Positions 55,360 to 59,300 of a DNA stretch of 64,000 nucleotides are shown piece by piece. The position numbers and the translations under genes were made by a program. This DNA comes from Plantibacter sp. VKM Ac-2880 (lineage in GTDB: Bacteria > Actinomycetota > Actinomycetes > Actinomycetales > Microbacteriaceae), in the NCBI RefSeq assembly GCF_015351235.1, contig NZ_JADKSJ010000001.1, positions 2,125,668 through 2,189,667 on the forward strand, written 5' to 3'. The notes beneath the pieces are model-generated. The model did no database searches. It was not told the DNA's origin and worked only from the letters and a program-made list of their open reading frames with translations. How positions within the stretch are numbered: position 1 is the first letter of the stretch; each line of letters begins with the position of its first letter.

Positions 55360-55508
55360 GGATCTCGGACCCGTTCACCTCTCGGAATGTCGGCGGCCCT
55401 TTTCGGGTTGCACTGCGCCAAGACTTGACATGGGTCCTCGTAATGTCCGAAATCACGGACGATCCGGCGTTGACTCTCGAAGCCGGGTCCGAACAGGAAG
55501 GTGCAGCT

Positions 55509-56795
55509 ATGGCCACCAAGACCGCTCGCGCAGACGAAGCAGCGCCGGCAGACGAGGCCACGGAGGCTCCCGCAGCGAAGGCTCGGACCACCAAGGCCGC
55601 CACGCCGCGCACGAAAGCCGCTCCCAAGGCGAAGGCCACGCGTGCCAAGGCCGCCCCGAAGGCGGGCTCGGAGCCCGATGAGGCTTCAGACGACGAGGAC
55701 GTCGTCGTCGAGGTCGTCGCAGACGACGCCGTGGTCGACGCACCCGCCGGCGAGGCGACGGAGACGGTCGAGGAGGAGGACGACAAGTCCGTCCCCGAGA
55801 TCACGCTCCCCACCGACGCACTCGTGCTCTCCAACAGCGACGACGACGAGATCCCCGTCTACTCCGCGGCGATCACCGGCGCGACCGCCGACCCGGTGAA
55901 GGACTACCTCAAGCAGATCGGTAAGGTCGCCCTCCTCAATGCAGCGGAAGAGGTCGAACTCGCCATGCGCATCGAGGCCGGACTCTTCGCGGAGGACAAG
56001 CTCTCCCAGCTGTCCGACCTCGAGAAGCGTTCGCGCGTCGGCCGGGAACTCCAGTGGGTCGCGAAGGACGGAGCCCGGGCGAAGAGCCACCTGCTCGGCG
56101 CCAACCTGCGACTCGTCGTGAGCCTCGCCAAGCGCTACACCGGACGAGGCATGCAGTTCCTCGACCTCATCCAGGAGGGCAACCTCGGGCTCATCCGTGC
56201 GGTCGAGAAGTTCGACTACACGAAGGGCTTCAAGTTCTCCACGTACGCGACCTGGTGGATCCGCCAGGCCATCACACGTGCCATGGCCGACCAGGCACGG
56301 ACCATCCGCATCCCCGTGCACATGGTCGAGGTCATCAACAAGCTCGCCCGCGTGCAGCGCCAGATGCTCCAGGACCTCGGTCGCGAACCCACGCCTGAGG
56401 AACTGAGCCGCGAGCTCGACATGACACCTGAGAAGGTCATCGAGGTCCAGAAGTACGGCCGCGAGCCCATCTCACTGCACACCCCACTGGGCGAGGACGG
56501 CGACAGCGAGTTCGGCGACCTGATCGAGGACACCGAGGCGGTCGTCCCGGCCGACGCGGTGAGCTTCACCATGCTGCAGAAGCAGCTGGAGTCGCTCCTC
56601 GATTCGCTGTCCGAGCGCGAAGCCGGTGTCATCCGGATGCGCTTCGGCCTCGGAGACGGCATGCCGAAGACGCTGGACCAGATCGGCGACACGTTCGGCG
56701 TCACGCGCGAGCGGATCCGACAGATCGAGTCGAAGACCATGGCGAAGCTGCGTCACCCGAGCCGATCCCAGTCGCTCCGCGACTACCTCGAGTAG
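55509..56795 (+). CDS. sigA: Principal RNA polymerase sigma factor (RpoD/SigA)
   Basis: A 428-residue group 1 sigma-70. A Lys/Ala- and Glu/Asp-rich N-terminus (about 1-110) is followed by region 1.2 ([16 protein letters not shown]). Region 2 has [19 protein letters not shown] and the -10-binding [18 protein letters not shown]. Region 3 follows, then region 4 has [21 protein letters not shown] for -35 binding. The ATG follows AGGAAGG by eight bases. Upstream in-frame starts (55443, a TTG at 55425) lack ribosome sites. The very basic N-terminal part is typical of actinobacterial SigA. Confidence 0.96.
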
Positions 56796-56799
56796 GAGC

Positions 56800-58062
56800 A
56801 TGCGCTACGCCCCCGCCATCCTCGCGGGCCGAGCCGTCCGATTCCTCGCCAGGCTGCGTAAGCCGGGCGGGGGATCGGCCGTTCCCGGCCTCGTGGTCAA
56901 CCGCGTCGCTCCCGGGTTCCTGCCAGACACGCTGAACAGCTTCCCGCGTGGCCTCGTGATCGTGAGTGGCTCAAGCGGGAAGTCGACCACGACCAAGATG
57001 CTCGTGGGCATCCTGCGCGCGCATCAGGTCTCCGTGTTCACGAACCCGTCCACGGCGAACATCTCCCAGGGCCTCACCTCGGCACTCCTCGAACGGGCCG
57101 ACCTCCGAGGTCGGATCGACGCGGATCTGGGCGTGCTCGAGATGGACGAGGGCCATGGGGCTCTGATCGCCCCGCGACTCCGCCCGGCGCACGTCATCCT
57201 GACGAACGTGTCGGTCGATCAGATCGACCGCTTCCACGATGCCGCCATGGTGTCCCGCATGCTCGATGCGATCGCCGGACGATCGACCGGTTCGCTGGTC
57301 CTGAACGGCGACGACGCGCTGGTCGACGCGGTCGCCTCTGGGAGCGCCGCGACCCGGTGGCGGTACGGCGTGTCGGCCTCGGTCCTGGAAGCCAGCCCGC
57401 GTGGCCTCGGCTACAGCTCGACCGCTCCGGATCGTGTCGATGCGGACGCCGGCACAGTGGTGCAGTCGCTGGTCGGCGACGAGGTGGTCATCGCGCACCG
57501 AGGCGAGTCCGCGCGGTTCCGTCTTCCTGCTCGCGGCGTGCACTACGCGGTCGACGCGGCCGCGGCCATCTCCGGTGCTGCGGCCATCCTCGGGCCGGAG
57601 TTCCGGCTCGCGACGGCGGCAGCCTCGTTCGAGGCCCTGACTCCGGTGTTCGGCCGTGGCGAAGTGACCACCGTGCGTGGCGTCGAGGTGGAGTTCGTGC
57701 TCGTCCAGAACCCGGCGAGTTTCCAACTCAACATCGACAGTCTCGCCCCGGACACGGAACAGATCCTGGTGGCCGTCGGCAGCGACGTCCGCGACCCGTC
57801 CTACCTGTGGCCGGTCGACACGGCCCGTCTGGGTCGTGTCGCCGTCGTCTCCGGTTCGAAGGCTTGGGAGGCGGCGCTCCAGCTCGGGTACGACGGCGTC
57901 GAGATCGATCGCATCGAGCCGGATCTCGGTGCGGCCCTGGACGCGTTCCTGGCACTCCCCGCCCCTGGTGTCGGCCGAAAGACCGTCATCTTCACCGCCG
58001 ACTCGATGCGTCGCACGCGCGCGCACCTCGGGCTCGCCTCGAACGATCAGGACGACGCATGA
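56800..58062 (+). CDS. murT: MurT-like Mur ligase (lipid II D-glutamate-modifying), zinc-ribbon-less
   Basis: A 420-residue Mur-ligase-type ATPase. The P-loop SGSSGKSTTTKM (about 57-67), LEMDEGHG (114-120) and LTNVSVDQIDRF (135-146) match MurT, which with GatD amidates the alpha-carboxyl of D-Glu in lipid II. The C-terminal DUF1727 domain (about 300-420) has QILVAVGSDVRDPSYLWPVD where canonical MurT has a D-x-S-W-I-W-D segment. The whole protein contains no cysteine, so the four-Cys zinc ribbon expected near residues 190-230 is absent. It starts five bases after the sigA stop with AGGAG, and overlaps gatD by ATGA. Confidence 0.88.
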   Translation: MRYAPAILAGRAVRFLARLRKPGGGSAVPGLVVNRVAPGFLPDTLNSFPRGLVIVSGSSGKSTTTKMLVGILRAHQVSVFTNPSTANISQGLTSALLERADLRGRIDADLGVLEMDEGHGALIAPRLRPAHVILTNVSVDQIDRFHDAAMVSRMLDAIAGRSTGSLVLNGDDALVDAVASGSAATRWRYGVSASVLEASPRGLGYSSTAPDRVDADAGTVVQSLVGDEVVIAHRGESARFRLPARGVHYAVDAAAAISGAAAILGPEFRLATAAASFEALTPVFGRGEVTTVRGVEVEFVLVQNPASFQLNIDSLAPDTEQILVAVGSDVRDPSYLWPVDTARLGRVAVVSGSKAWEAALQLGYDGVEIDRIEPDLGAALDAFLALPAPGVGRKTVIFTADSMRRTRAHLGLASNDQDDA

Positions 58063-58808
58063 CGACCGAGCCGACGATCATCATCGCCGTCCTGCTGCCG
58101 TCGAGCTGCAACGTCAACGGCGACGCCGAGAACGGCTCGGTCCTCGCTCGCCGTGGTCGCGCTCGAGGACTCACCGTCGAGCTGGTCCCGGTCGAGTCGG
58201 TGGCGGACCTGCCCGAGGCGGTCCACGCCGTCGTGCTCGGTTCCTGCGACGACCCGTCCGCCCCGGCTGTCCTCGAAGCGCTCCGGCCGTTCCACGACGC
58301 CTTCATCGCGTGGGTGGAGGCGGGTGTGCCGATCCTCGCGGTGGCGAACGGATGGAAGCTCCTCACCCGTCGTCTCGAACTGGCGCCAGGCAGCTGGGTG
58401 GACGGACTCGCGATCATCGAGGGGGACGCCCCGCTCCGCGGCGCCCGGGCCAGCGACGACTTGCTCGTCGTACCGGCCGGCGACCTCGAACTGGAGTCGC
58501 CCGTCCTCGTGGGCTACGAGAACCACGCGAGGGACTTCCGCGGCGGTACGGGCGTCAAGGCTGTCGGTGCCGTGCGCCACGGCCGCGGCAACGGAGACGG
58601 CACCGAGGGGGCGATGGTCGGTCCGTTCATCGGCACCCATCTGCACGGACCGGTGCTGGCGAAGAACCCCGAACTGGCCGACCGTCTGCTCCGTCAGGCC
58701 ATCGTCGTCGCCGGTGGGACGTCGATGCTCGACGATTCGGCGGAACTGCGCGCCCTGGACGAGATCGCCGCACAGACACGGGCACAGGTCGTCACGTCCA
58801 TCGGTTGA
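58059..58808 (+). CDS. gatD: GatD-like class I glutamine amidotransferase without catalytic cysteine
   Basis: A 249-residue CobB/CobQ-type amidotransferase domain protein, partner of MurT. NVNGDAENGSVLARRGRARG matches the GatD 'N-x-x-G-D-x-x-N' start, VGYENHARDF and GTHLHGPVLAKNP (His196) match the C-terminal half. Where the nucleophile elbow should read P-(V/I)-L-A-I-C-G-G-Y-Q-L-L, this protein has PILAVANGWKLL: Ala96 replaces the cysteine and Asn97 the next Gly. It cannot release ammonia from glutamine by the known mechanism. Coupled to murT by ATGA overlap, so the pair is still maintained as a unit. Confidence 0.88.
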   Translation: MTTEPTIIIAVLLPSSCNVNGDAENGSVLARRGRARGLTVELVPVESVADLPEAVHAVVLGSCDDPSAPAVLEALRPFHDAFIAWVEAGVPILAVANGWKLLTRRLELAPGSWVDGLAIIEGDAPLRGARASDDLLVVPAGDLELESPVLVGYENHARDFRGGTGVKAVGAVRHGRGNGDGTEGAMVGPFIGTHLHGPVLAKNPELADRLLRQAIVVAGGTSMLDDSAELRALDEIAAQTRAQVVTSIG

Positions 58809-58866: not shown

Positions 58867-59097
58867 CTACGCGCGCTGCTCGGTGAAGAGCCGCGCGGAC
58901 TCGTCGTGCCAGTCGGTCGCGACCTGCGTCAGCTTCTCCTGGTACTTCTTGCCGTGGTGCGCGCAGAACAGCAGCTCACCGCTGTTCATCTGCACGCGGA
59001 TGTAGGCCTGTGCTCCGCACAGATCGCAACGATCGGCGGCAGTCAGTTGCTGGGCGTCGAGGTCACTCGGCGTGCTCTCGGTAGCAGTCTGTGACAT
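58867..59097 (-). CDS. Small zinc-binding protein (DUF7455-like)
   Basis: A 76-residue protein with a treble-clef-like metal site: RCDLCGAQAYIRVQ, then LLFCAHHGKKY, giving C-x2-C and C-x2-H ligands. It is found next to sigA in many actinobacteria; the function is unknown, though small zinc proteins of this kind often touch RNA polymerase or the ribosome. The ATG at 59097 follows GGAGGAG; a longer reading upstream lacks a ribosome site. Confidence 0.85.
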   Translation of the reverse strand: MSQTATESTPSDLDAQQLTAADRCDLCGAQAYIRVQMNSGELLFCAHHGKKYQEKLTQVATDWHDESARLFTEQRA

Positions 59098-59119
59098 GTG
59101 CTCCTCCTGACTCGGGCGG

Positions 59120-59134
59120 CTACGAAACTCGTAG
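59120..59134. other. Short inverted repeat CTACGA-AAC-TCGTAG upstream of the small zinc-protein gene
   Basis: Perfect six-base arms with a three-base spacer, 23 bases before the ATG at 59097. It could be an operator or a small leader hairpin. The rest of 59098-59300 shows no gene or clear signal. Confidence 0.35.
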
Positions 59135-59300
59135 TACTCATGAAAGCACGCGTTCGCCGCAACGGTGTGCCTTTGCGCGTTCGTTTCGCTCTGCGCGTAG
59201 ATCATTCGGACCAGACCGTCAGCCGGATGGGTGGCCGGCCGGAATGCAGGATGGCGGGATCGTCGCCGAGTGTCACCATCGGCGTGTCGGACGCGGAGAC

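Follow-up and report, generated by a model that had tools for sequence, protein, structure and literature searches.

A MurT/GatD pair without the glutaminase cysteine behind sigA in Plantibacter, probably an amino-acid ligase for type-B peptidoglycan

The murT/gatD locus and its active-site residues

The window is the whole 64,000 nt stretch of DNA from Plantibacter sp. VKM Ac-2880 that was analyzed. It has a murT gene and a gatD gene located directly behind sigA (Table 1). The sigA stop is 4 nt upstream of murT, and the gatD start overlaps the murT stop in the sequence ATGA. Pfam finds Mur_ligase_M and MurT_C domains in MurT and GATase_3 in GatD. The AlphaFold models have pLDDT values of 92.3 (MurT) and 96.3 (GatD); PDB matches of the MurT model are MurT and Mur ligases, with solved MurT the best, and the best matches of the GatD model are GatD proteins. 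The MurT sequence is 89% identical to that of Plantibacter locus L228, and the motif AVANGWK is common to both. The inverted repeat in Table 1 sits between gatD and a convergent small gene (positions 58867–59205). Judged by its sequence, this palindrome is likely a two-way terminator common to gatD and the convergent gene.

Table 1. Features at the murT/gatD locus of the window and related loci in other genomes
Feature	Position	Strand	Basis or remark
sigA, primary sigma factor	55425–56795	+	ORF; start codon provisional
murT, Mur-ligase-type subunit, 420 aa, class I	56800–58062	+	translation, Pfam, AlphaFold model
MurT P-loop region (S)GSSGKSTT, Lys61, kept	56968–56994	+	alignments
MurT SVDQIDR; Val139 at canonical ammonia-gate Arg position	57211–57231	+	alignments
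MurT GSDVRDPSYLWPVD region; Asp332 matches S. aureus MurT Asp349	57778–57819	+	alignments
gatD, class I glutamine amidotransferase fold, 249 aa	58059–58808	+	translation, Pfam, model
GatD Ala96 codon, former nucleophile position	58344–58346	+	alignment
Perfect 20-bp inverted repeat, 3-nt loop	58813–58855	no strand	sequence reading
Tandem extra racemase pairs beside class II pairs or CofE-like genes: L071, L076, L078, L082, L093, L260, L269, L277 and others, and in G028 at the position given	G028 C1:1823918-1825359		
CofE-like (PF01996) genes directly behind sigA, no MurT/GatD: L166–L178, L180, L181, L186, L187, L190, L194–L214			genomes G001, G036, G057, G082, G084 and others

In the GatD segment PILAVANGWKLL, Ala96 aligns with the essential Cys94 of S. 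aureus GatD, where replacement by Ser or Gly abolishes activity (PMC6113224). His196, the counterpart of the S. aureus catalytic His189, is kept. MurT has no Cys at all, no zinc ribbon, and carries the motif GSDVRDPSYLWPVD. These residues, the coordinates, the strand and the ATGA overlap had been reported in a preliminary description of this DNA, and translations and alignment reproduce all of them. The GSDVRDPSYLWPVD region is three residues shorter than the canonical NDNYADGRDMSWLW, and the DNAAD(G) motif beside the triad Asp is changed to GSDV with a three-residue deletion. The third triad Asp itself is kept, as Asp332 in RDPSY aligns with the Asp of DxSW. A loss of the whole triad was considered when S. 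aureus Asp349 was first equated with the DNAAD Asp; the numbering of the solved chain assigns it to the DxSW Asp, and this candidate was rejected. The acyl-activation residues are also kept (Lys61, Asn87, Glu114, Asp116/Glu117, Arg286 and Asn304), i.e., the P-loop Lys/Thr, the acceptor-loop Asn, the Mg/ATP Glu and Asp-Glu and the hinge Arg are all present.

Among the closest known systems is the MurT/GatD lipid II isoglutaminyl synthase of S. aureus, S. pneumoniae, S. pyogenes and M. tuberculosis. The gene pair, the folds, the P-loop, the acyl-activation residues and the overlapping operon are alike. The window pair differs in that it has no nucleophilic Cys, no zinc ribbon and no gate Arg (Arg135 of pneumococcal MurT is the ammonia gate, PMC6085368), in the replacement of DNAAD with a three-residue deletion, and in its fixed place behind sigA. 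A second, intact MurT/GatD, which the preliminary description had held would refute its reading, was looked for in the same genome. Only one MurT is present (one MurT_C match), and it is the sixth Mur-ligase-type protein beside five others.

Dead glutaminases in the Microbacteriaceae and their origins

A sample of 150 Microbacteriaceae genomes was searched for GatD, the MurT C-terminal domain, class III/IV MurT and a CofE-like protein. A glutaminase-dead pair is found in 107 of the 150 genomes: 95 with class I/II pairs (including one MurT fragment, G038), 10 with class III (one pair very divergent) and two with class IV. Another 21 of the 150 lack MurT/GatD but have a strong CofE-like gene, 14 have the canonical pair alone, and eight have none of these ligases. 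Dead and canonical pairs are found together in three genomes, G054, G066 and G124, which are fragmented assemblies.

The canonical signatures are CGxYQLFG and HGP in GatD and RDQxDR and NDxYADGRDxSW in MurT. The GatD Cys is present in 33/33 canonical copies and absent from all class I/II loci of the family (0/101) and from all named relatives (0/79). The residues that replace it are G, A, S, N or T. Ala96 is therefore neither chance nor a sequencing error. The His is kept in 34/39 class I GatDs and in 33/62 of class II (lost in 29/62). Loss in GatD is linked to changes in MurT. In the MurT partner of each class I/II dead GatD, the gate Arg is gone and the DNAAD region is three residues short, yet the DxSW Asp, the hinge Arg and the Lys, Asn, Glu and Asp-Glu are kept; in most of these copies the P-loop Thr is replaced by Ser. 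Other families of the phylum were covered by 40 loci, where DG-D-SW is present in all MurTs and every adjacent GatD found has the Cys. Glutaminase loss was seen in every class I–IV GatD examined and is confined to the Microbacteriaceae in the sample. The preliminary description had predicted that loss of the Cys would follow type-B walls across the Actinomycetota; in the present sample, wall type is confounded with family. No relatives of the pair were found in viral contigs. MurT matches with one in-frame TGA occur in G563, G595 and G616, which are large genomes from a different family.

Values of dN/dS are 0.03–0.20 for MurT and 0.08–0.31 for GatD. Both genes are under purifying selection, and GatD is less conserved than MurT. 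That the pair is a degenerate relic without function, an alternative that the preliminary description had also disfavored, is hardly credible: the lower conservation of GatD would fit a relic, but dN/dS is well below 1 in both genes, the frames are intact in about 100 genomes, and the slot and operon are conserved.

The preliminary description took the missing zinc ribbon as a sign of repurposing. The ribbon is indeed missing from the sequence, but its CxxC pairs are also missing from the order's canonical, Cys-bearing MurTs, so the loss is older than the dead glutaminase and unrelated to it. In addition, dead class III/IV MurTs keep the ribbon. It was dropped as a mark of repurposing.

Classes I and II group together in a MurT tree (SH-aLRT 100), close to the canonical enzymes of the order, and classes III and IV form a separate clade (SH-aLRT 96) distant from I/II. 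A single dead clade is rejected with an AU p of 0.0008, in a tree that has long branches. This topology makes two or more losses of the glutaminase probable. The second dead lineage keeps the zinc ribbon and has lost both the Cys and the His of GatD (L151–L154 and L156–L160, class III; L155 and L161, class IV).

The slot behind sigA, CofE-like genes and racemases

Of the 152 dead-pair locus records with enough sequence, 146 have the pair directly behind sigA (certain genomes contribute two records), in comparison with none of the 33 testable canonical copies. In genomes without MurT/GatD the slot is usually filled by a 230-aa PF01996 protein (F420-0:gamma-glutamyl ligase; Table 1). In seven genera (g7, g9, g13, g57, g58, g76 and g84) one species has the dead pair and another has the CofE-like gene, and genus g53 has a more distant CofE-like gene directly upstream of a class IV pair. 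CofE, the coenzyme F420-0:L-glutamate ligase, is unrelated to MurT/GatD in fold and sequence. It joins an amino-acid amine to a carboxylate, and the CofE-like protein in the same slot is proposed to be a functional analogue. The known CofE enzyme is GTP-dependent. The CofE-like proteins behind sigA are probably not F420 enzymes.

A dead pair or a CofE-like gene is present in 128/150 family genomes, and 22 have neither. By content, three genomes have a dead/CofE ligase together with a canonical pair, 14 a canonical pair only, 125 dead/CofE ligases only and eight neither (Fisher 1e-11, with genomes that are not independent). The two kinds thus nearly exclude each other. Extra Mur ligases, as candidates for a rival enzyme, were sought in genomes without MurT or CofE-like genes and none was found; seven of these genomes have five Mur ligases, and the fragmented G146 has three.

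Among class II pairs, 50 have enough sequence downstream, and 22 of these adjoin alanine-racemase-family genes, as do the CofE-like genes of at least four genomes. Such neighbors are present at 0/9 class I and 0/15 canonical loci. In all eight genomes checked, leaving aside the small genome G015, the racemases at the locus are a tandem pair, with a further copy elsewhere. The tandem extra racemases are candidate diamino-acid racemases. The Plantibacter genome has one Alr-type racemase, which is away from murT/gatD. In G015 (927,303 bases), a divergent class II dead pair (L141) has the only Alr-type racemase of the genome at the locus.

A probable role in type-B wall synthesis

In the open-access literature searched, no enzyme was found named for joining the bridge residue to the alpha-carboxyl of D-Glu, the bond that defines type B. 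DAB occurs as a wall amino acid of the Microbacteriaceae, and the Plantibacter wall is of type B2gamma with DAB. The FemXAB transferases and the ATP-grasp Asl ligases, which are type-A cross-bridge enzymes, also add a bridge residue to a wall precursor, but they join the carboxyl of the incoming residue to a stem amine. A type-B diamino bridge lies between two carboxyls and is joined through its amines, and therefore the D-Glu carboxyl must be activated. Peptides D-Ala-D-Dab and Gly-D-Glu are known from the Rhodoluna wall (PMC4156110), and Microbacterium walls have D-Orn, Lys or DAB (PMC10757982). Further family genera cited for wall chemistry are Subtercola, Agreia and Frondihabitans (PMC5945732), Herbiconiux (PMC10011130) and Agromyces (PMC5217419). 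An assignment of class I to L-DAB and class II to D-amino acids was dropped because Rhodoluna, a class I genus, has D-Dab (PMC4156110); the bridge amino acid does not separate class I from class II, as D-DAB is found in both Rhodoluna and Clavibacter.

The pair is probably a repurposed MurT/GatD that serves type-B peptidoglycan synthesis as an ATP-dependent amino-acid ligase; we infer its substrate, acceptor and reaction order. MurT would join the bridge amino acid to the D-Glu alpha-carboxyl, with the amine of the free amino acid attacking the acyl phosphate to form the bridge bond. Ordinary transpeptidases would later join the second amine of the bridge residue to D-Ala4 of the neighboring stem. 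The known relatives of MurT activate the D-Glu carboxyl, and CofE-type enzymes add an amino acid to a carboxylate. Because the slot is shared with a CofE-type amino-acid ligase, the acceptor is more likely an amino acid than ammonia, and in Plantibacter this is probably 2,4-diaminobutyrate. GatD would make no ammonia and would be retained as a structural partner of a MurT that is unstable without it. This could be because MurT alone is degraded, as pneumococcal MurT without GatD is completely degraded by trypsin (PMC6085368). The proposed reaction resembles that of the Mur ligases MurC–F, which activate a peptidoglycan carboxylate with ATP and add an amino acid.

Several findings count against the ligase reading. 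Wall type is confounded with family, as the sampled type-B taxa are all Microbacteriaceae. There are the 14 family genomes with only canonical pairs, the eight with nothing and the three with both kinds. Class I loci, the window's among them, are without a racemase, the Plantibacter genome has a single Alr-type gene, and MurT keeps the triad Asp (Asp332, S. aureus Asp349).

Three other explanations start from a functional complex. The pair could be an amino-acid ligase acting on another envelope or metabolic carboxylate, with the CofE-like protein doing the same job. The CofE-like proteins do derive from a coenzyme F420 enzyme, and sharing of a slot suggests equivalence while leaving the substrate unspecified. 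This is nevertheless unlikely, since MurT homologues act on the D-Glu of lipid II (PMC6113224, PMC6085368), competition for one carboxyl would be expected to give the near-exclusion seen with the canonical pair, which amidates D-Glu, and MurJ is behind one CofE-like gene. Amidation of D-Glu by MurT with free ammonia, with GatD as a scaffold, is still less probable. It would agree with the intact acyl-activation residues of MurT, and free NH4+ is often a usable substrate for the synthase subunits of amidotransferases. However, the ammonia-gate Arg is also lost, the slot is common to a CofE-like amino-acid ligase with racemases beside, and the type-B bond of these walls could not form if the alpha-carboxyl of D-Glu carried a primary amide (PMC9603630, PMC4156110).

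A complex that still depends on glutamine, through a borrowed glutaminase or another residue, is very improbable. In its favor, His196 is kept in 34/39 class I GatDs and Asp332 in MurT, but Ser or Gly at Cys94 abolishes activity in S. aureus (PMC6113224), the His is missing in almost half of class II, and five different residues (G, A, S, N or T) replace the Cys.

The ligase reading had been put forward in the preliminary description with the pair as the missing type-B enzyme. Its core is the best-supported reading, given the linked losses, the sigA slot, the swap with CofE-like genes, the racemases and the near-exclusion; should it be correct, however, more than one enzyme serves type B, and the pair is not the only missing one. 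We lean toward the view that three or more ligases, recruited separately and interchangeable in one slot behind sigA, make the type-B bridges of the Microbacteriaceae, i.e., dead MurT/GatD of two origins (I/II and III/IV) and a CofE-derived ligase. If true, murT/gatD would fill the enzyme gap at the type-B bond and be testable with two small genes, and the swap of one cassette would account for possible shifts in bridge chemistry from one sister species to another. The glutaminase would have shed its chemistry at least twice, freeing the synthase partner to use amino acids. The family includes the crop pathogens Clavibacter and Rathayibacter, so a wall enzyme that is both essential and specific to the family would have practical relevance.

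At one CofE-like locus (L191 in G020), a diaminobutyrate--2-oxoglutarate transaminase gene is located between sigA and the CofE-like gene.
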